The notes under the pieces are model-generated. The model saw only the letters and a program-made list of their open reading frames with translations, had not been told where the DNA came from and did not search any database. 64,000 nucleotides of DNA from an uncultured Methanobrevibacter sp. (GTDB taxonomy: Archaea > Methanobacteriota > Methanobacteria > Methanobacteriales > Methanobacteriaceae): contig OMVY01000003.1 of assembly GCA_900314635.1 (NCBI GenBank), forward strand, positions 186,001 to 250,000, read 5' to 3'. Both the position numbers and the translations under genes were made by a program. Below, piece by piece: positions 31,111 through 48,600 of the stretch (positions are counted from its first letter, which is position 1; each line of letters opens with the position of its first letter).

Positions 31111-31136
31111 AATATTTTAAATGGGATAAAATTTTT

Positions 31137-31514
31137 AAAAAAAGATTTAGAGGCAGTACATAGAATTTATATTTGTATTTGGATGTTTAGTTAGGTTTTA
31201 TGGTTTTTAAATTTGGGGACATTTTGTCTATAAATTCTATGTACTATTTTGGAGATTGAGACAAATTATGTCTATATCAATAATTTTAACTCTCTCACTA
31301 ATTAGATTATTAATAATTAATTCGGTTCGGAAAAGAAAATATGTTTTGTTTACTTATTAATAAATGATTATAATAATTCTATTGTTTGACAACACGTATT
31401 AAGAGATTAAATATGAATATTTTTTTTTAGAATCATTATAATCAATGTCTAATTAAAGAATGTATTTAATTAAAATTATTTCAACAAAAATTTAGGTGAA
31501 CCTAAATATTTGTT
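31137..31514 (-). ncRNA. Candidate iron-regulated small RNA C
   Basis: Predicted transcript on the minus strand, about 380 nt, starting about 25 bases past the TATA box at 31536-31543 and ending at a seven-U run (31138-31144). No ORF above about a dozen codons is present. Reading along the RNA, it has the hairpin AGACA/TGTCT, the conserved unpaired box CAATCTCCAAA (31258-31248), and a perfect 16-bp terminal stem (31245-31230 with 31170-31155) opening with AGTACATAG. The box and stem start match RNAs A and B at 47 kb. It lies downstream of, and is parallel to, the metal P-type ATPase. Assignment as RNA gene is inferred from conservation, promoter and lack of coding capacity. Confidence 0.7.
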
Positions 31515-31570
31515 AATTATAGTTTGTTTTAATAGTATATAAACTTCTCTAAAATTTAGGTATTCCTAAA
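31491..31570 (-). promoter_or_regulatory. Iron-box promoter of small RNA C
   Basis: Two perfect palindromes TTTAGG-N4-CCTAAA, at 31555-31570 and 31491-31506, bracket a minus-strand TATA box (GTTTATATACTATT, 31531-31544). One box lies upstream of the TATA, the other just after the expected start, so a bound repressor would block both factor and polymerase. The layout and spacing equal those at 47.10-47.19 and 47.53-47.61 kb. Confidence 0.8.
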
Positions 31571-31787: not shown

Positions 31788-33914
31788 TTATTTGGCTTCT
31801 AAAAGCACGGGTTCCTCGCTGTTCAATACGGATCTTGTGCTTCTAACTCCAAAGAGCATTGTAGACAGGTTATGGAGCAGAGATGATGTGCCTGGAGTAA
31901 TCAATCCGAATATTCCCAGAGCAAGCAATGTTCCATTGAACATCACAATGTGTCTGTAATTTGCATTGATCTTGTCTATCATTCCAACAGATAATTTCCT
32001 GAGGGTTATCAGGTCATACAGGTCATCGCTGAGCAGTGAGATGTCTGCTACTTCCCTTGCAATGTCTGAAGAGTTTCTCATAGCTACTGAAACATCAGCT
32101 GCAGATAATGCAGGAGAATCGTTGATTCCATCTCCAACCATGATGACTTGATGTCCCTCTTTCTTGAGGCTGTTGATGATGTTTGCCTTGTCTTCAGGAA
32201 GAACCTGGGACTTGTATCTTGTAAGGCCAAGATCGCTTGCTATCTTGCTTGCAGCATTTTCACTGTCTCCAGTCAGCATTACAACATTCTCGATGCCTAA
32301 TGATTTAAGCTCTTGGATTACATCGTGTGCTTCCTCTCTTACAGGGTCTTCAATACATAATATTCCCTGAAGCTTCTTGCCTATTGCCAGATAAATTACT
32401 GAATATTGGGCCACCTGTTCTTCGATGAGTTCCTTCTGCTTTTTAGTGAATTTTATCCCCTCATCTTCTTCAACAAAGTGACGGCTTCCGATGATGGCCT
32501 TCTTGCCATGATATTTTGTGGAAATTCCGTGAGCAACTATATATTCAACTTCACTATGTTCTTCTTCATGTTTCAATCCTTCAGCTTCTGCCTGCTTGAC
32601 AATCGCAGTAGCTACGCTGTGAGCGAAATGCTCTTCAATGCATGCTGAAATTCTTAAAACCTCATCCCTTTCGTATTTGCCGCATGGTATGACTTTTGCA
32701 AGTTTCGGACTTGCATTTGTCAGGGTTCCTGTCTTGTCAAACACGATAGTGTCTGCAGTTGAATAAGCCTCCAGGAATTTTCCTCCTTTAACCATCATTC
32801 TGTTATCTGAAGCTTCTTTCATTGCTGAAATGACGGAAATAGGAGTAGTCAGTTTGATTGCGCATGAGAAATCAACCATCAGGACTGACAATGCTTTAAC
32901 AGAATTTCTAGTAATCAGATAAGTCAATGCTGTTAAAAGCAGGCTGTAAGGCACAATAGAATCTGCTAATTTTTCTGCTTTGCTGTGGACTCCCGCTTTC
33001 AAGTCTTCTGAGTCTTCAATCATCTGGATGATCTTATTCAATCGAGTCTCTTCATTTACGGAGGACACTTCAATAATGATGGAGCCTTCCTCCACAACAG
33101 TACCTGCATGAACGGCTCTTCCTTCAGTTTTATGAACTGCAAGGGATTCTCCGGTCATGGAGGCCTCGTTAATCATCGCATCGCCATCTGCAATGACTCC
33201 GTCAACAGGAATGATTGCTCCGGTTCTGATTCTTACCTTTTCACCTTTTTTAACTTTGGATAATGGCTTCAGGCTTTCTACTTCATTGCCTTCGTCATCG
33301 CATTCAACTACCCAGACATTATCAACATTGAGCGCAAGACTGTTTTTCAATGTGTTTTTGGTCTTTTGCATTGTGTAGTCTTCAAGCAGATCTGATATTC
33401 CAAGGAGGAAGATCATTGATCCGACGGAGTTGAAGTTTCCTTTATATAACGAAGCAGCAATTGCAGTACCATCTAAAAGGGCGACATCGATTCTGAAGCT
33501 TGTCAGGCTGTCAAGCCCTCTCCATATGTAAGGTATTGCATGAGCTAGCAGTCTTATTCTTCTTAAAGGTATTGGAAGAATGATTTTGAAGAGATATCTC
33601 TTCACAAATCTTTTAGCCAGTCTTAAAAAGAATTTGTCAGACAACTCTTTAGAAGTAGAAGCATTATCAGGTTTAGCTTCAAATAAATCGTCTTGTGTGA
33701 TTTTATCCAGTATTTTAAGGATAGTTCCTTTCTTTTCTGGATCATTATAATAGATGAGAATGCTTCCGTTTCTATGGGAAATCAAACATTCATCAATAAA
33801 ATCATATTCAAGTAGTACAGAAGTCAGTCCGTAGCTTTCCCCTTCAGTAAAAGCATCTTTACCAGCTCGAACTCTCAAACGAGTGCCTTTGTCATAAACA
33901 ATATCATAAATCAT
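31788..33914 (-). CDS. Heavy-metal P1B-type ATPase with SCAIKL membrane motif
   Basis: Metal-pumping membrane ATPase of 708 residues. The first 85 or so residues resemble an HMA-like domain without the CxxC pair. Cytosolic signatures are complete: TGES in the actuator domain, phosphorylation loop DKTGTLT, and MVGDGINDSPAL. The metal-coordinating membrane motif reads DFSCAIKLTTPISV instead of CPC or SPC, so the transported ion differs from the copper and zinc pumps. With iron boxes upstream of its operon and DUF6110 beside it, iron or manganese transport is a fair inference. It is preceded by the DUF6110 gene on the same strand. Confidence 0.9.
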   Translation of the reverse strand: MIYDIVYDKGTRLRVRAGKDAFTEGESYGLTSVLLEYDFIDECLISHRNGSILIYYNDPEKKGTILKILDKITQDDLFEAKPDNASTSKELSDKFFLRLAKRFVKRYLFKIILPIPLRRIRLLAHAIPYIWRGLDSLTSFRIDVALLDGTAIAASLYKGNFNSVGSMIFLLGISDLLEDYTMQKTKNTLKNSLALNVDNVWVVECDDEGNEVESLKPLSKVKKGEKVRIRTGAIIPVDGVIADGDAMINEASMTGESLAVHKTEGRAVHAGTVVEEGSIIIEVSSVNEETRLNKIIQMIEDSEDLKAGVHSKAEKLADSIVPYSLLLTALTYLITRNSVKALSVLMVDFSCAIKLTTPISVISAMKEASDNRMMVKGGKFLEAYSTADTIVFDKTGTLTNASPKLAKVIPCGKYERDEVLRISACIEEHFAHSVATAIVKQAEAEGLKHEEEHSEVEYIVAHGISTKYHGKKAIIGSRHFVEEDEGIKFTKKQKELIEEQVAQYSVIYLAIGKKLQGILCIEDPVREEAHDVIQELKSLGIENVVMLTGDSENAASKIASDLGLTRYKSQVLPEDKANIINSLKKEGHQVIMVGDGINDSPALSAADVSVAMRNSSDIAREVADISLLSDDLYDLITLRKLSVGMIDKINANYRHIVMFNGTLLALGIFGLITPGTSSLLHNLSTMLFGVRSTRSVLNSEEPVLLEAK

Positions 33915-34177: not shown

Positions 34178-34276
34178 CTTAGACTTTGAAATATAATATC
34201 AATTTATTTTACGGAAAATAATTGGTTTTTAATTTCAAGTCTAAGATTTTAGACATATAGATCTTTAAAGATCTAT
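34178..34276 (-). terminator. Stacked inverted repeats between DUF6110 and the P-type ATPase gene
   Basis: The palindrome TAGATCTTTAAAGATCTA (34259-34276) overlaps the DUF6110 stop. It is followed on the minus strand by a second inverted repeat, CTTAGACTT(T)GAAAT with ATTTCAAGTCTAAG (34232-34245 and 34178-34192), and then a U-rich stretch. This could end or attenuate the DUF6110 message before the ATPase. A minus-strand TATA-like AGTATTTATAAA near 34060 may give the ATPase its own start. The remaining gap (33915-34177) shows nothing else. Confidence 0.55.
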
Positions 34277-34539
34277 TCGTCGTCAGCAACATCAACTAAA
34301 ATTTTTTCTTTTTTAGCTTCTTTAGCATCAAGAGCGATATCTTCTGCATTGTCTTTTATGTCTTGGAAAGCTTCTTCAGCTTCGCTTTTTACAGCTAAGA
34401 CTTTAGCCATTGCATTTGTGCAAGCGTTTTTAGTTGTTTCAGCTTCAAGGATTTTCTTACCAACTACTGCAGTAGCAATTCCGCCTAAAAAAATAAGTGC
34501 ATGTTTGTGTTCCATACATTTGTCATAATATTCTCTCAT
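34273..34539 (-). CDS. DUF6110 family protein
   Basis: An 88-residue protein with a single N-terminal hydrophobic helix (ALIFLGGIATAVVGKKIL, about 14-31) after MREYYDKCMEHKH, and a long helical, strongly charged tail (EAEEAFQDIKDNAEDIALDAKEAKKEK). This is the DUF6110 pattern, a small membrane-anchored family commonly found next to metal P-type ATPases like the one downstream. A chaperone or regulatory partner for that pump is inferred from linkage. The gene is under an iron-box promoter (34705-34756). Confidence 0.75.
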   Translation of the reverse strand: MREYYDKCMEHKHALIFLGGIATAVVGKKILEAETTKNACTNAMAKVLAVKSEAEEAFQDIKDNAEDIALDAKEAKKEKILVDVADDE

Positions 34540-34704: not shown

Positions 34705-34756
34705 TTTAGGTTTTCCTAAAATAGATTTATATTATTCTTTTTTAGGTCTATCTAAG
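34705..34756 (-). promoter_or_regulatory. Iron-box promoter of the DUF6110/P-type ATPase operon
   Basis: TTTAGG-TTTT-CCTAAA (34705-34720) and the weaker TTTAGG-TCTA-TCTAAG (34741-34756) flank a minus-strand TATA-like AATATAAA (34726-34733). The start would be near 34705, giving a leader of about 165 nt before DUF6110. This matches the other iron-box promoters but with closer spacing. Confidence 0.75.
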
Positions 34757-34890: not shown

Positions 34891-34906
34891 TTTAGGAATG
34901 CTTAAA
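34891..34906. promoter_or_regulatory. Degenerate iron box in the 34.5-35.2 kb gap
   Basis: TTTAGG-AATG-CTTAAA lies 36 bases from a TATA-like CTTTATATAG (about 34855). Two further weak palindromes, TTTTAGTAAAACTAAG and TTTTGGTAAAACTAA, occur near 34770-34815. The gap 34757-35199 has no supported gene; the direction of any transcript from here is unclear. Confidence 0.4.
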
Positions 34907-35555: not shown

Positions 35556-35859
35556 TTTAGGCAAACTTAAAAAAATTTTTTATTTTTTGTTAAACCTAAA
35601 CTTTATATAGGATAAAAATGTAAACTAATATTAGGTTTTAGGTCTACCTAAACAATATTTTGTGTGGGGGCTGAATCATTTTATTTGGCTCTTTTTAATT
35701 AAATTTTAATAAAAGTTTTATTATTTTTTCATTTTAATCAACAAAAAGTTCATAATTTATTAATTTAAAAATACCCAATTTTTAAAATTTTAATATGCAA
35801 AAAATACCTCAAAATTAATAAAATTTTATTAAAAAAATATTTTTTTAGGCATACCTAAA
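35556..35859 (+). promoter_or_regulatory. Double iron-box promoter region of feoA-feoB
   Basis: Distal promoter: a degenerate box TTTAGG-CAAA-CTTAAA (35556-35571) and a half site CCTAAA (35595-35600), then TATA TTTATATA (35602-35609) and a perfect box TTTAGG-TCTA-CCTAAA (35637-35652) at the expected start. Proximal: a further perfect box TTTAGG-CATA-CCTAAA (35844-35859), 55 bases before feoA. The 190 bases between carry GTGTGGGGGCTGAAT and AT-rich DNA without an ORF; they may be a leader or a short RNA. Confidence 0.75.
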
Positions 35860-35913
35860 TTTCCTATCAAATTTGAATAACTTAATTTTTATAATATTGA
35901 GAGGTTATGAAAT

Positions 35914-36144
35914 ATGATAAAAACATTAAATGAACTCAAAACTGGAGAAGAAGGTACTCTGGTTTCCTATCAAGGAGGAGATGTCGAACTGAGAAGACAT
36001 TTGCTCGGTATGGGTTTTGTAAAGGGAGCAACAATAAAGCTTGAAAAAGTGGCTCCTCTCGGTGATCCCTTAGAATTGAAAGTTAAAGGATATGCGGTTT
36101 GTTTAAGAAAAGAAGAAGCTAAATTTATTAAAGTGGAAGTTTAA
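35914..36144 (+). CDS. feoA: Ferrous iron transport protein A
   Basis: Small SH3-like cytosolic partner of the FeoB iron channel. The 76 residues show the FeoA core: LNELKTGEEGTLVSYQGGDVELRRHLLGMGFVKGATIKLEKVAPLGDPLELKVKGYAVCLRKEEA. It is transcribed towards feoB1 with 110 bases between. GAGAGGTTATG is the ribosome-binding region. Only one feoA serves the two feoB genes in the window. Confidence 0.95.
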   Translation: MIKTLNELKTGEEGTLVSYQGGDVELRRHLLGMGFVKGATIKLEKVAPLGDPLELKVKGYAVCLRKEEAKFIKVEV

Positions 36145-36254
36145 TTGGCGATGCTTCCATTTTGATATTCTTCTATCAGAATTGCAGATTTTAATTTTTA
36201 ATTAAATATATGGTTTATAAAATTTTAAAAAAACATTAACTAAAAGGTAAAACT

Positions 36255-38273
36255 ATGGCGAATTTAAAAATAGGTTTAGCTGGTAACCCTAATGTAGGTA
36301 AAACCACCTTATTTAACAATTTGACTGGTTTGAACCAACATGTGGGAAATTGGCCAGGTAAAACCGTAGAAAAGGCAGAAGGGCACTATAATTATAATAA
36401 CAACCGAGTTGACGTTATCGACTTGCCTGGAAACTATGCATTAAGTGCTCATTCAATCGAAGAGATTGTATCAAGAGATTTCATTGTAGATGAAGACTCT
36501 GATGTGATTGTAAATATTATAGATGCATCCAACCTTGAAAGAAACCTTTATTTAACAGTTCAAATGATGGAGCTTGGAGCTAATTTGGTTGTTGCACTGA
36601 ACATGAACAAGTTTGCTCAGGATAAAGGGTACACAATAGATGCTAAAAAACTTTCTGACTTGTTAGGAGTGCCGGTAGTAGAAATTGAAGCTAACAGTAA
36701 AATCGGTAAGGATCAATTGTTAAAAACTATTGAAGAGGCTGCAAAAAATCCTGTTAACACAGTAAACAGATTATCTTACGGTCCTGAATTATTTGATCAT
36801 TTAAATGAGCTTCAAACTGCTATTGAAGAGGATAAGAACTTGGGTGATGTCCCATCCCGTTGGATTGCAATCAAATTGCTTGAAGATGATGAAATCATTC
36901 TTGATAGAATTGAAGACTCTTCCAAAAGAAATAATATTTTAAATACAACTGAAAAAGTGAAAAAACACTTTAAGGATATTTATAACGAAAGCAGTGAAGA
37001 AGTTATTGCAAATGCAAGATATGCATACATTGAAGGATTGCTTAAGGAAGTTTTAACCAAGCCTGCAACCGAAAAGAAAACTCTCACTGACAAAATCGAC
37101 AGTATTGTAACTAACAGACTCTTAGGATTCCCTATATTCTTAATTATAATGTACCTGATGTTCCAGATTACATTTACTGTAGCAGCTCCATTCCAGGACA
37201 TGATTGATGAAGGATTTGGAATTTTAGGTGAAATGGTGGCAGCAGCTCTTGGTGATGGAATGCTCACCTCATTTATCGTAGATGGTATCATCGGCGGAGT
37301 AGGTGGAGTATTAGTGTTCCTTCCACAAATTATACTCTTGTTCTTGATCATTAGTTTCTTGGAAGACAGTGGTTACCTTGCAAGAGCAGCTTTTGTTATG
37401 GATAAAGTAATGCACAGTTTAGTTGGCCTGCACGGTAAAGCATTCATTCCTATGATTTTAGGATTCGGATGCGGTATTCCAGGTATTATGGCAACAAGAA
37501 CCATGGAAAACGAGAAAGACAGATTAATCACCATGCTGATTGTTCCATTCATGTCTTGTACTGCAAGAATGCCTGTATACTTATTATTAGTAGGTGCTTT
37601 CTTTGCTGCAGCAGACCAGACCAATGTAATCTTCTCATTATACGTCTTAGGTATTGTTGTAGCAATTATTGTGGCATTTATTTTAAGAAAAACCTTGTTT
37701 GATGATATGGATGCTCCATTCGTAATGGAATTGCCTGATTACAAATTGCCAACCCTCAGAGGTATTTTAATGCACACTGCAGAAAAATCCTGGGGATTCG
37801 TAAGAAAAGCAGGTACCATTATCTTAGCAGCAGCAATTATTGTATGGATTTTAAGCAGTTTCCCAGCTGGAGTGGAATATGGTTCTCAAGAAAGTGCAAT
37901 CGGTATGATTGGTACTGCAGTAGCACCTGTATTCGCACCTCTTGGATTCGGCAGCTGGCAACCTGCAGTAGCATTGATCTTCGGATTAGTTGCTAAGGAG
38001 GTTGTAGTCGGAACCTTCAGTTCACTCTTCGGAGTAGCCGAGGAGGGAGCGGGAATAGCGGCGGCAATGCATGGAATCTTTACTCCGTTAACCGCTTACG
38101 TATTCATGGTATTCGTACTGTTATACATCCCTTGTTTCGCAGCGCTAGGTACTATCAAACAGGAAACCGGCGGCTGGAAATGGCCTTTAATAATGTCAGT
38201 TACTACTTTGATAACCGCTTATGTGGTTGCATTCATTGTTTACATGGTAGGTCTGGCACTAGGTTTCGGATAA
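36255..38273 (+). CDS. feoB1: Ferrous iron transport protein B, copy 1
   Basis: GTP-gated Fe(II) importer of the cytoplasmic membrane, 672 residues. The N-terminal G domain carries G1 [14 protein letters not shown] (about 9-22), G3 DLPGNYAL and G4 NMNK, followed by the helical GDI region. The C-terminal half has two gate domains ([34 protein letters not shown] and the second around VGTFSSLFG) and ten or so membrane helices. It is highly similar over its whole length to the second copy at 39.7 kb, clearly by duplication; this copy is linked to feoA. Confidence 0.97.
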
Positions 38274-38556
38274 TCTAAATTAAACTGGAATTTGGTTATT
38301 AACCAAATTCTTTTTCTTTATTTTTTCATTTTGTTTTTGCTTTAAAATATTTTAAAATTTATTTTAATTTATGTGATATTTTTGAATCTCTATTTTTCAT
38401 GTTTTAATTGATTATGGAAAATACCGGATTTTTTATTGAGTGTTCGTTTGTATTTCTTTGTTTTTGATTTTTGATTTGGAAGTTTGATTTATTAGTTTAT
38501 TTTAGTCTGATTTGGAACTTTATTTGATCATATTTATTTTTATTTAGAGGAGTTTT

Positions 38557-38898
38557 ATGTTGATAGATACTGTAAAATCATTAGCATTCTTTATCATAGC
38601 TGGTTTCTTTGAAATCGGAGGAGGATATATGGTCTGGTTATGGCTTCGTGAAGGCAAGGGCTTTGAGTTTGCAATTCTAGGTGCCATAATGCTGATTCTT
38701 TATGGTATTATTCCAACATTCCAGCCTGCTACATTTGGAAGGACATATGCGGCCTATGGAGGAATATTCATTGCATTGTCTGTTCTGTGGGGCTGGAAGA
38801 TTGACAATGTTGTTCCTGATCAATTTGATATAATTGGTGCATGCATAGCGCTTGTAGGTGTGTTTATCATAATGTACTGGCCGAGAGCTATAGCTTGA
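38557..38898 (+). CDS. YnfA/UPF0060 family membrane protein
   Basis: Four-helix small membrane protein (113 residues) of the UPF0060/YnfA family, with the conserved AGFFEIGGGYMVWLWLREGK near the N-terminus, YAAYGGIFIALSVLWGW in the middle and PDQFDIIGACIALVGVFIIMYWPR at the end. The family is distantly related to small multidrug resistance transporters, but its natural substrate is not established. It lies between the two feoB genes; AGAGGAG precedes the ATG. It may be a bystander or help with metal export. Confidence 0.88.
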   Translation: MLIDTVKSLAFFIIAGFFEIGGGYMVWLWLREGKGFEFAILGAIMLILYGIIPTFQPATFGRTYAAYGGIFIALSVLWGWKIDNVVPDQFDIIGACIALVGVFIIMYWPRAIA

Positions 38899-39038
38899 AA
38901 TCATGATTTTTTTATTGAGTGATAACAAATTATAAATATCTTTAAAAAAATTAAAATAAATTATTCAAGATAATATTTTATGCAAAACAAACTATTATAT
39001 TTTTAAAACAATTTGGCAGAAAAAAGAAGGTGAACTAT

Positions 39039-39239
39039 ATGCAATGTAGAATGTGCGGATATGAATTCGATGAAACAAGAGTTGGGGGATGTGCAGGTTG
39101 TGGAAACTGTGCAGATGGCAAGAAAGCCCATTGTCCAAATTGTGGATATGGAAATCCCATTGTATATGAGGAACGAGATTTCGAATTCATTGAAAAACTG
39201 AAAGTCAAATTAGGCTTGAAATCTGAGAATGGTGCATAA
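39039..39239 (+). CDS. Small cysteine-rich metal-binding protein next to feoB
   Basis: A 66-residue rubredoxin-like protein with eight cysteines: CRMCG (3-7), CAGCGNC (18-24) and CPNCGYGNP (32-40). The first and last pairs can form a rubredoxin or zinc knuckle; GCAGCGNC is an additional cluster. The tail EKLKVKLGLKSENG is basic. AAGGTGA precedes the ATG at 39039 (a GTG at 39030 is in frame but overlaps that site). Its place between feoB1 and feoB2 suggests a role in iron handling similar to small FeoC-like or Fe-S sensing proteins; this is inferred from linkage only. Confidence 0.75.
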   Translation: MQCRMCGYEFDETRVGGCAGCGNCADGKKAHCPNCGYGNPIVYEERDFEFIEKLKVKLGLKSENGA

Positions 39240-39511
39240 TTCTTAGATTTTAATTATTTTTCTATTAGATAGTCGTTTTATAACTGTTTTTTTCTATTAT
39301 ATGGTCGTTTTTTAACTTTTTTTCTATTTTTTAACTGTTTTTTGGTTTTTTATAGTATTTTTTTTACTTTGTGTTTTTTATTTATATGAGGGTATTATCT
39401 TTTTTTCGTTGCTGTTTTTTGTTTTTATTTTTGAAAATTTTTTTATTGGCTATTTCTTTTCCAATTAGCTAAATTATTAGTTTTTCATGCTTTTTCATGA
39501 TTATCAAAAAT

Positions 39512-39577
39512 ATTTGGCTAACCTAAACTTTAAATATCATATATATTAAAAGTAATACTATATTTGGGTAGACGTAA
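39512..39577 (+). promoter_or_regulatory. Degenerate iron-box promoter of feoB2
   Basis: ATTTGG-CTAA-CCTAAA (39512-39527), then a TATA-like CATATATATTA (about 39538-39548), and a second weak copy ATTTGGGTAGACGTAA (39562-39577) at the expected start: the same plan as the other iron promoters with poorer boxes. A GTAATAC heptamer like those before the nik genes is at 39552. The remaining part of the gap (39240-39511) holds repeated T-tracts (TTTCTATTATATGGTCG units at about 39258-39310) and no gene. Confidence 0.55.
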
Positions 39578-39690
39578 CGGATTATGGATTTTTGTGGTTT
39601 TTTTTAATCAAAATTTTAATCAAATGTCTATTTTTTCTTTCATTTAGTTTTAAATTAAACTGATGATAAAATTTATTTTGGAAAGGTATT

Positions 39691-41709
39691 ATGGCAGATT
39701 TGAAAATAGGTTTTGCAGGCAATCCCAATGTGGGAAAAACCACTCTCTTCAATCAGCTGACTGGTATGAATCAGCATGTGGGAAACTGGCCTGGCAAAAC
39801 AGTTGAAAAGGCGGAGGGGCACTACGATTTTAATGGCAGGCGAGTTAATGTGGTTGATTTGCCTGGAAATTATGCATTAAGTGCTCATTCAATAGAAGAA
39901 ATAGTATCAAGGGACTTTATTGTAGATGAAGACTCAGATGTTATTGTAAATGTTGTAGATGCTTCTAATTTGGAAAGGAACTTGTATTTGACTGTTCAAA
40001 TGATGGAGCTTGGAGCTAATTTGGTTCTTGCTTCAAATATGAATAAATTCGCCCAGAGAAAAGGTTATGAAATCAAATACGATGTCTTGTCTGAATTGCT
40101 TGGAGTACCTGTTATTGAAATAGAAGCCAATTCTAATATCGGCATAAACAGATTGCTTGAAACTATTGAATATGCTGCAGAACATCCTGTTGATACAGTT
40201 GAAAGGCTGGTTTATGGTCCCGAGCTATTCGAGCATTTAACTGAACTTCAAGAGGTCATAGATGAAGATAAAAATATGAGCAAAGCTCCATCACGCTGGA
40301 TTGCAATCAAACTGCTTGAAAACGATGAAATAGTTCTTGACATGGTGGAAAACTCACCCAAAAGAAACAGGATCCTGAAAACAACTGATGATGTCAGAAG
40401 CCATTTGGAATCCATTTACGGCGAAAGCTGTGAAGAGATCATTGCAAATGCAAGGTATGCGTTTATCGATGGTTTGCTCAAGGAAGTTCTATTCAAGCCC
40501 CAAGTGGAAAAGGAAACTATTACTGATAAAATTGACAATATCGTGACCAACAGGATTTTCGGCCTTCCAATATTTTTACTAATCATGTTTCTAACCTTTG
40601 AGATAACATTCGTGGTTGGAGCTCCATTCCAGGATTTAATTGGAGAAGGATTCAATCTTCTGGGGGAGTGGATTATTTCGATTCTCGGACATTCAATGCT
40701 CTCATCATTTTTAGTTGACGGCGTAATCGGCGGAGTTGGAGGAGTGCTTGTTTTCGTTCCTCAAATCGCCATTCTGTTCTTCATTATAAGCTTCCTTGAA
40801 GACAGCGGATATCTGGCCAGAGCGGCTTTTGTAATGGACTGGGTAATGCACAAGCTTGTTGGACTGCATGGAAAGGCCTTCATCCCAATGATTCTCGGAT
40901 TTGGATGCGGTGTTCCGGGCATTATGGCAACAAGGACAATGGAGCATGAAAAGGATAGGATTATAACAATGTTCCTTATTCCATTCATGTCATGTTCTGC
41001 AAGATATCCCGTCTATCTGCTCCTTGTAGGTGCTTTCTTTGTCAAATCCTTGCAGGGCATAGTGATATTTTCATTGTACATGATAGGAATAATAGTGGCC
41101 ATCATCGTCGCATACATGCTTAAGAAGACATTGTTCAAGGATTTATCCGCTCCTTTTGTAATGGAACTGCCTGATTACAAAATGCCTACTGCAAAAGGCA
41201 TTCTCATGCATACCTGGGAGAAATCTTATGGGTTTGTCAGGAAGGCAGGTACGATTATTCTTGCCGCAGCTGTAGTAATCTGGATTTTAAGCAGCTTCCC
41301 TGCAGGAGTCACCTACGGATCACAGGAAAGTTTCATAGGCATGATAGGAACCGCAATCGCTCCGATATTTGCTCCTCTTGGATTTGGCAGTTGGCAGGCT
41401 TCTGTTTCCATACTATTCGGTCTGGTTGCAAAGGAGGTTGTCGTATCCACATTCAGTTCATTATTCGGAGTGGCTGAAGGAAGCTTTGCCATGATGAATG
41501 CAATGCATGGGGTTTTCACACCGCTTTCAGCATATTCATTCATGGTGTTCGTGCTGCTTTATGTTCCTTGCTTTGCAACCCTTGCAACTGTAAAGCAGGA
41601 AACCGGAGGTTGGAAATGGCCAATGGTCATGACAGCAGTTACAATTATCACTGCATTCATAGTTTCATTTGCAGTTTACAATATAGGATTATTACTTGGA
41701 TTTGCTTGA
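39691..41709 (+). CDS. feoB2: Ferrous iron transport protein B, copy 2
   Basis: Second 672-residue FeoB with the same motifs as copy 1 ([29 protein letters not shown], and gate segments). The G domain and membrane gates are nearly identical between copies; differences concentrate in the helical linker (about 150-270) and some membrane helices ([22 protein letters not shown]). It has no adjacent feoA of its own and only weak iron boxes, so expression may differ from copy 1. Confidence 0.97.
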
Positions 41710-47103: not shown

Positions 47104-47186
47104 TTTAGGTATGCCTAAATTTTTAGAAAGGTTTATATACTATGAAGTACAACTATTAAATAACAAGAAATTTAGGCGAACCTAAA
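47104..47186 (+). promoter_or_regulatory. Iron-box promoter of small RNA A
   Basis: Perfect boxes TTTAGG-TATG-CCTAAA (47104-47119) and TTTAGG-CGAA-CCTAAA (47171-47186) flank TATA TTTATATA (47132-47139). The expected start is near 47163, so the second box covers the first transcribed bases. Box-to-box distance is 67 bases, the same as in the next promoter. Confidence 0.82.
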
Positions 47187-47430
47187 TTTTTTGTTTGACA
47201 ATCTTAACATATTATTAACTTGAATTTTACAAAACAAATCAATCATCTTCAACGGAATCGCTCATCCGTCTTTTCCTCTTGTAAAATTCGAAAAACACGT
47301 AATCTAAGGTTGTTCATAAAACCATTGATAAATAGCGTGGTACTATTTATCGCAATCTCCAAAATTTAGTGCATGGTAATATAAGCCAGTTACTATGCAC
47401 GCCTCTTATTTTAATCGCTTTTTTATTTTT
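47163..47430 (+). ncRNA. Candidate iron-regulated small RNA A
   Basis: About 270 nt with no ORF longer than four codons. Fold elements in order: an 11-bp stem GAATTTTACAA/TTGTAAAATTC (47222-47232 with 47279-47289) enclosing hairpin ACGGA/TCCGT (47252-47269); a perfect 9-bp hairpin GATAAATAG/CTATTTATC (47327-47351); the conserved single-stranded box CAATCTCCAAA (47353-47363); and an 11-bp terminal hairpin (47369-47379 with 47390-47400), then a U-tract near 47418. Box and hairpin start are shared with RNAs B and C. Confidence 0.75.
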
Positions 47431-47525
47431 CAATTATCTCATTTTATTTTTCAATTATTTTTTTATTTTAGTCTTATTCTCTTTTACTGTTTGGGTTGGC
47501 TATTTCTGAAATAATATTTAAAAAA

Positions 47526-47608
47526 TTTAGCCATACCTAAAAATTCCAAAAAGTTTATATATGATGAAAACAAACTAATAAATAACAATAAATTTAGGCA
47601 CACCTAAA
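47526..47608 (+). promoter_or_regulatory. Iron-box promoter of small RNA B
   Basis: TTTAGC-CATA-CCTAAA (47526-47541) and the perfect TTTAGG-CACA-CCTAAA (47593-47608) flank TATA TTTATATA (47554-47561); expected start near 47585. Sequence between TATA and second box (ACAAACTAATAAATAACAA) is similar to the other two RNA promoters. Confidence 0.82.
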
Positions 47609-47915
47609 TTATTGTAAATGAATAATCTATAATAATCTTTTTAATAATAATTTTGAGCATTTTATTGATCTCATAAATGATATGTAGATCATGAACAGCT
47701 TGAAATTATTATTAAACATTTAAGTTTTACTTAAAAAAACACACATCATTTTCTTCTGCAGATTAATCTGTTTCTTTTGCCCAAATCTAAGTAAAACTTA
47801 AAAATCCCAAAAGATTATCTGATAAATAGTAAAAAAAGTCATTTATTATTTGTCTCAATCTCCAAATTAGTACATAGCGCTGCTATGTGCTATTCCTTAA
47901 TTGCTTTTTTTATTT
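47585..47915 (+). ncRNA. Candidate iron-regulated small RNA B
   Basis: About 330 nt; the longest start-to-stop frame is ten codons and is not shared with A or C. A hairpin with imperfect arms TGATCTCAT/ATGTAGATCA (47667-47692) is followed by a perfect 13-bp stem TAAGTTTTACTTA/TAAGTAAAACTTA (47721-47733 with 47788-47800) enclosing CAGATTAATCTG. Then come a GATAAATA/TATTTGTC stem (47821-47854), the box CAATCTCCAAA (47856-47866) and terminal hairpin GTACATAGC/GCTATGTGC (47870-47890), ending in a seven-T run near 47911. Overall order equals RNA A. Confidence 0.75.
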
Positions 47916-48205: not shown

Positions 48206-48373
48206 TTATTCTATATACATGGCGCCTAAAGGACAAGCTTCAATGCATAATCCGCAATCATCACAGCCGTCACGGACTTTCATGGTGTATCCTATTTTTA
48301 TAATCAGGTCTTTAGGGCATTTTGGAACGCATTGTTCACAGACTCCGCAATACTCGTTATCAATCATTAACAA
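48206..48373 (-). CDS. Small 2[4Fe-4S] ferredoxin-like protein
   Basis: A polypeptide of about 55 residues holding two full cluster motifs, CGVCEQCVPKCP and CDDCGLCIEACP (each C-x2-C-x2-C-x3-C), so it should bind two [4Fe-4S] clusters as a soluble electron carrier. The frame opens at ATG 48391, but GGTGA (48382-48378) sits inside it. The TTG at 48373 (four-base spacing) or ATG at 48367 is then the likely start. It is convergent with the iron-regulated RNAs. Between RNA B (47915) and this gene is AT-rich DNA without other genes. Confidence 0.8.
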   Translation of the reverse strand: MLMIDNEYCGVCEQCVPKCPKDLIIKIGYTMKVRDGCDDCGLCIEACPLGAMYIE

Positions 48374-48600
48374 TTTATCACCATATTTCAATATTAAAAA
48401 TTTGTTATTATAAAAATTAAATATTATTAGTTTATTTGTTTATTTTTCTTTATATAATTTGTTAATAGAAAAGTGTTTGATGATTTTTTCTTAAAATTTT
48501 CTATCCTTATGTGCCTGTCATAGATGGTGGCTTGAAATATATCTAAAATTATCACAAGATTTATATATTATGAAAAACAACTTTATATTGTTGTTATAAT

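Follow-up and report, generated by a model that had tools for sequence, protein, structure and literature searches.

Structured RNAs behind paired iron boxes in Methanobrevibacter-type archaea: candidate iron-sparing regulators

Iron-sparing sRNAs are characteristic of iron physiology in bacteria: FsrA of Bacillus, RyhB of enterics and PrrF of Pseudomonas are repressed by iron and reduce the synthesis of iron proteins, and PrrF occurs in tandem copies. To our knowledge, few archaeal sRNAs have a known role. FsrA directs a C-rich motif against the Shine-Dalgarno (SD) sequence (PMC9410917). IsrR of Staphylococcus has repressor boxes in its promoter and just after its start, three unpaired C-rich regions and a terminal hairpin; its targets are the SD sequences of mRNAs for Fe-S enzymes, fdhA included, and its conservation lies within one genus (PMC9410917). 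sRNA154 and sRNA41 of Methanosarcina mazei act in trans by masking ribosome-binding sites and are tied to nitrogen supply (PMC5867862). In the open-access papers searched, we found no report of an archaeal iron sRNA.

Here we analyse a 64-kb stretch of DNA (64,000 nucleotides; the window) from an uncultured Methanobrevibacter sp. whose genome comprises 2.29 Mb in 36 contigs. A sequence-only reading of the window had proposed three structured RNAs, A, B and C, as an archaeal counterpart of the iron-repressed sRNAs. Like IsrR, they have boxes around the (predicted) start, C-rich unpaired regions and a terminal hairpin, and their putative targets are SD regions, that of fdhA among them. Unlike IsrR, they are archaeal, have a putative DtxR rather than a Fur repressor, measure roughly 190-380 instead of 174 nt and exist in several copies, and no sequence common to the two was found. 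Given these differences, the likeness to IsrR is one of working, not of membership. Tandem copies (the A-B pair and some copies in a second genus) recall PrrF, whereas the archaeal promoter and repressor type, and possibly the RNA chaperones, set the RNAs apart from FsrA, RyhB and PrrF. sRNA154 and sRNA41 differ from them in having no iron box and in coming from another order of archaea. Searches against Rfam 15 gave no relevant match at the gathering threshold or at E<=1; this includes RyhB, FsrA, PrrF and IsrR, not all of which Rfam may contain. Homology to RyhB, FsrA and PrrF is not supported; the likeness would be a functional one.

Promoters, iron boxes and the putative regulator

In each of the three RNAs, a pair of iron boxes (TTTAGG-N4-CCTAAA, to which no strand is assigned) flanks the TATA box, at spacings of 67, 67 and 64 bases in A, B and C, respectively. 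Box 1 of RNA A (47104-47119; TTTAGGTATGCCTAAA, 0 mismatches) is followed by the TATA box (47132-47139, + strand; TTTATATA) and box 2 (47171-47186; TTTAGGCGAACCTAAA), a layout common to A, B, C and their relatives. The corresponding elements of RNA B are box 1 at 47526-47541 (TTTAGCCATACCTAAA, one mismatch), a TATA box of the same sequence, TTTATATA, at 47554-47561 (+) and box 2 at 47593-47608 (TTTAGGCACACCTAAA). RNA C lies on the minus strand, with matches to the box pattern at 31555-31570 (box 1) and 31491-31506 (box 2) and a TATA box at 31536-31543. The position of TATA sets the transcript start in archaeal promoters, and on this basis the RNAs should begin approximately 10 bases 5′ of box 2, which would leave box 1 upstream of TATA and place box 2 at the RNA 5′ end. 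The predicted transcript of RNA A, bounded by the start expected from TATA and by its T-tract, extends from 47160 to 47435 (+); those of B and C span 47582-47915 (+) and 31135-31516 (-). The sequence-only reading had located A and B at 47163-47915; the loci are real, but that span starts near box 2 of RNA A and omits its box 1 and TATA box.

The window contains 11 iron boxes with at most one mismatch, compared with 0.34 expected. One of them (35844-35859) stands upstream of feoA-feoB (35914-38273; feoB identified by TIGR00437, 682 bits), and in relatives the box is also found 5′ of feoB-like genes (loci L019, L020 and L029). Because the same box precedes feoAB, the proposed iron control of the RNAs appears well founded. 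Only one gene in the window's genome scores above the Pfam cut-off for the DtxR family, and a one-mismatch box is located about 130 bases upstream of this sole clear member (G000:C36:4457-4472). The boxes at feoAB and near this gene make an iron-dependent DtxR-type repressor the likely regulator of the box pairs.

Several further boxes deserve mention. The one at the DtxR-family gene may reflect autoregulation. Two feoB genes are present within 35844-41709 (36255-38273 and 39691-41709), of which the first, with feoA, is behind the iron box. The box at 34705 is upstream of a small-protein gene adjacent to one for a heavy-metal P-type ATPase (31788-33914); this box and another at 34891 are near that protein (88 aa; 34273-34539, -), which has no NCBIfam match and resembles a small protein found behind a box pair in a different genus (L039). 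Elsewhere in the genome, a perfect box lies between moaA and the gene 5′ of fwdF (G000:C19:72717-72732). More close pairs of perfect boxes, which enclose or adjoin a TATA-like stretch, occur at G000:C18:120345-120414 and G000:C10:30730-30785; no obvious gene lies directly downstream of either, and they may serve other iron-controlled transcripts.

Structure and distribution of the RNAs

All three RNAs fold more stably than shuffled sequence (z of -6.1, -8.4 and -7.6 for A, B and C), with no shuffle equally stable. In RNA A, the GATAAATAG stem (47327-47351, +) directly precedes an unpaired seed, CAATCTCCAAAA (47353-47364, +), that is exact in A, B and C and complementary to SD regions; a terminal hairpin (47369-47400, +), whose pairing is kept in orthologues as helix 3, and a T-tract follow. 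RNA B has the GATAAATAGTAAA stem (47821-47854, +), the seed CAATCTCCAAA (47856-47866, +), which reads CAACCTCC in most type-B orthologues, and a terminal hairpin (47868-47892, +; helix 6 of the type-B alignment) with its T-tract. In RNA C, the seed (31248-31258, -) is an exact match to the motif, the stem before it is weak (5-7 bp), and the terminal hairpin occupies 31155-31245 (-). There are three exact occurrences of CAATCTCCAAA in the window, one per RNA. The common order of parts described by the sequence-only reading was recovered at all three loci, with two corrections: the long stems of A and B, given there as 11 and 13 bp, are 13 and 15 bp in minimum-energy folds, and the terminal hairpin of RNA C opens with ATAGTACATAG rather than with TTAGTRCATRG. 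A 61-aa 2[4Fe-4S] ferredoxin frame (48206-48391, -) converges on RNA B.

Of the 139 genomes of the family, 84 contain double-box promoters, with boxes 46-60 bases apart; a reversed-pattern control found none. This pattern uncovered the family, whereas a search with CAATCTCCNAA..TAGTRCATR proved too narrow and reached one other relative only. Matches to the seed pattern in Marinoscillum, Pedobacter, Clostridia and Marinicaulis were dismissed as probable chance hits. We label the window's genus g1 and the second RNA-bearing genus g9, probably another Methanobrevibacter-type genus. In the majority of the more complete g1 genomes there are exactly two double-box promoters, 435-580 bases apart, corresponding to the A-B pair, and tandem A-B orthologues with conserved synteny are present in most g1 species. 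Among named relatives, the nearest to share these loci is uncultured Methanobrevibacter RUG11990, in which the pair stands behind cbiQ with two tRNA genes beyond, as in the window. Genomes of g9 carry up to five copies of a related, possibly homologous RNA, some in tandem. A covariance model of the g9 RNA (R1) has hits in 62 of the 67 g9 genomes and in none of the remaining 90 genomes of the class, g1 included; the g1 and g9 RNAs therefore have the promoter and seed in common and little else.

Pairing is conserved in both genera. Among 13 type-A sequences of g1, 97.8% of cells are paired and 7 pairs are changed on both sides (0/500 shuffles); among 15 type-B sequences the corresponding values are 94.2% and 5 (20/500 shuffles), with 9 both-side-changed cells (0/500). 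In 32 g9 copies, 93.1% of cells are paired, 12 of 32 pairs have both-side changes, and both-side-changed cells number 52 compared with 18 in shuffles (0/500). Sliding the partner columns by 1-3 lowers pairing to 29-52%. The covariation first claimed from the three paralogues, which are insufficient for that purpose, is established by these orthologue alignments. The predicted homologues at TTTAGG-N4-CCTAAA promoters likewise exist, in two genera of the family and with their pairing conserved.

In g9, the order of elements is box 2, a stem, CAAUCUCCAAAA, a stem, a stem with a AUCUGCCAA loop, and a terminal stem, its loop often CUCUCCUC, followed by the T-tract. Type A in g1 consists of a stem with a UCUUCCUCCCUUUC loop, a ACACAUCAUUUUCUUCUG region, a short stem, CAAUCUCCAAA and a terminal hairpin with an AAUCCC loop; RNA A of the window is shorter and does not have the first of these elements. 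Type B mostly carries CAACCUCCAAA. CTCC occurs in the RNAs 3-5 times more often than expected from composition, and GGAG is absent. A second highly conserved and mostly unpaired segment, ACACATCATTTTCTTCTG, is found in both types in g1. No target stood out for the second conserved loop. We regard it as all but certain that the RNA family is real, conserved and structured and that its operator is of the iron type.

Candidate targets and alternative roles

Complementing the seed yields UUUUGGAGAUUG, an SD sequence with its flanks. Targets were sought by pattern searches and in sampled genome stretches, which for g9 comprised 644 ATG-start frames in 800 kb of one genome. Upstream of only three of these 644 genes is TTTTGGAGATT present: fwdF, fdhA and an FMN reductase (identified with Pfam). 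Of 15 RNA-bearing g9 species, 14 retain TTTTGGAGATT at fdhA and the remaining one has ATTTGGAGATT, while the bases 5′ of the motif vary. Predicted pairing at fdhA is weaker in RNA-less genera (-3.5 to -10.8 versus about -13 kcal/mol). The fdhA leader in g1 and g3 reads TATGGAGATT, one or two bases off that of g9, which makes the g9-specific gain small in bases. Based on its complementarity and conservation, fdhA appears to be the best single candidate target. In g1, most species have TTTTGGAGAT at the gene for a 358-aa molybdopterin/[4Fe-4S] protein, which ranks second among the ATG-start frames of the sampled genome part.

Exact 12-mers at g9 start codons that lead into real genes were found many times at fwdF (the full 12-mer in about 20 genomes), twice each at a 2[4Fe-4S] ferredoxin and an 80-aa protein, and once at HypC. 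We rejected fwdF as independent evidence, since TTTTGGAG, which forms the coding end of the frame upstream, is also present in RNA-less genera, and coding thus explains the match at least partly. The best seed match in the window's genome, full length at the ribosome-binding site, belongs to DUF2193 (L068 1501-1530; L140 401-430), for which Fe-S binding has been proposed (PMC9431491). DUF2193 was discarded as a target, as the match is confined to this genome and one relative and other species have an unrelated leader.

As a group, Fe-S genes show only a weak preference in g1 (p 0.007-0.02; equalled by 9 of 150 scrambled seeds), while in the g9 genome enrichment is not significant (127 of 200 scrambled seeds equal). 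Pfam assigned 4-5 iron proteins to the 20 top seed matches and 2 to the 20 genes with the strongest SD sequences, a difference that is suggestive only. Such weak or non-significant enrichment, together with conserved loops that have no known partner (ACACAUCAUUUUCUUCUG in g1, AUCUGCCAA in g9), would also fit iron-box-controlled RNAs with another job, whose CUCC-rich loops would serve to bind or titrate other RNAs or a protein, with no specific action on iron-protein mRNAs. We consider this unlikely, given that the seed matches fdhA at full length across g9 and that the exact start-codon matches into real genes in that genus are nearly all to iron proteins, fwdF being confounded.

The boxes might instead drive unannotated small proteins, with the RNAs as their mRNAs. 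Some single RNAs do contain frames of 49-56 aa, and short frames occur in any random sequence. No ORF is conserved, however; a complete ATG frame is missing from 19 of 32 g9 RNAs, frames of at least 15 aa with an SD sequence number one in 60 RNAs, and indels do not come in threes while pairing is conserved, making this explanation very improbable. Scarcely any weight can be given to a role as leader or riboswitch for a gene downstream, which a regulated promoter followed by a structured RNA might suggest: no co-directional gene lies downstream, A runs into the B promoter, B faces the convergent ferredoxin frame and is separate from the tRNAs, the frame approached by C is convergent too, and every RNA ends in a hairpin and T-tract.

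Proposed mechanism and implications

Our preferred reading, to which we assign a probability of roughly 0.7, is that these are iron-repressed sRNAs that mask the ribosome-binding sites of iron-protein mRNAs and thereby spare iron. A, B and C would belong to a family of non-coding regulators that act in trans in Methanobrevibacter-type archaea. With ample iron, a DtxR-family repressor would occupy the two boxes around the TATA box and start site and keep the RNA genes off. Under iron limitation, the RNAs would be transcribed, adopt several stem-loops and terminate at the hairpin and T-tract. C-rich unpaired segments of the RNAs, chiefly CAAUCUCCAAAA (or CAACCUCCAAAA), would then pair with SD regions reading UUUUGGAGAUUG in the mRNAs of iron-rich enzymes, formate dehydrogenase for example, blocking ribosome binding. 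The sequence itself shows the paired boxes and the layout of the promoters, the conservation and covariation of the RNAs, the absence of ORFs, and the seed complementarity with its retention at fdhA; from this we infer that the RNAs are made, are iron-repressed, pair in vivo and lower iron-protein translation. We also lean, by a little, towards an archaeal iron-sparing system of multi-copy, double-operator sRNAs that arose independently of the bacterial ones, converged with IsrR in its logic and has paralogous seeds diverged (AUCUCC versus ACCUCC) towards different targets.

What appears to be new is a constant unpaired motif complementary to SD regions, with fdhA as the best candidate target, in a previously undescribed RNA family that would follow an iron-sparing strategy otherwise known to us from bacteria only. 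The family supplies loci, promoters, seeds and targets that are ready for testing. Fe-S proteins are very abundant in methanogens, and it is through formate dehydrogenase and FwdF that formate and CO2 enter methanogenesis. With a presence in nearly every species of two gut and rumen methanogen genera, the RNAs would link iron supply to methane formation post-transcriptionally.
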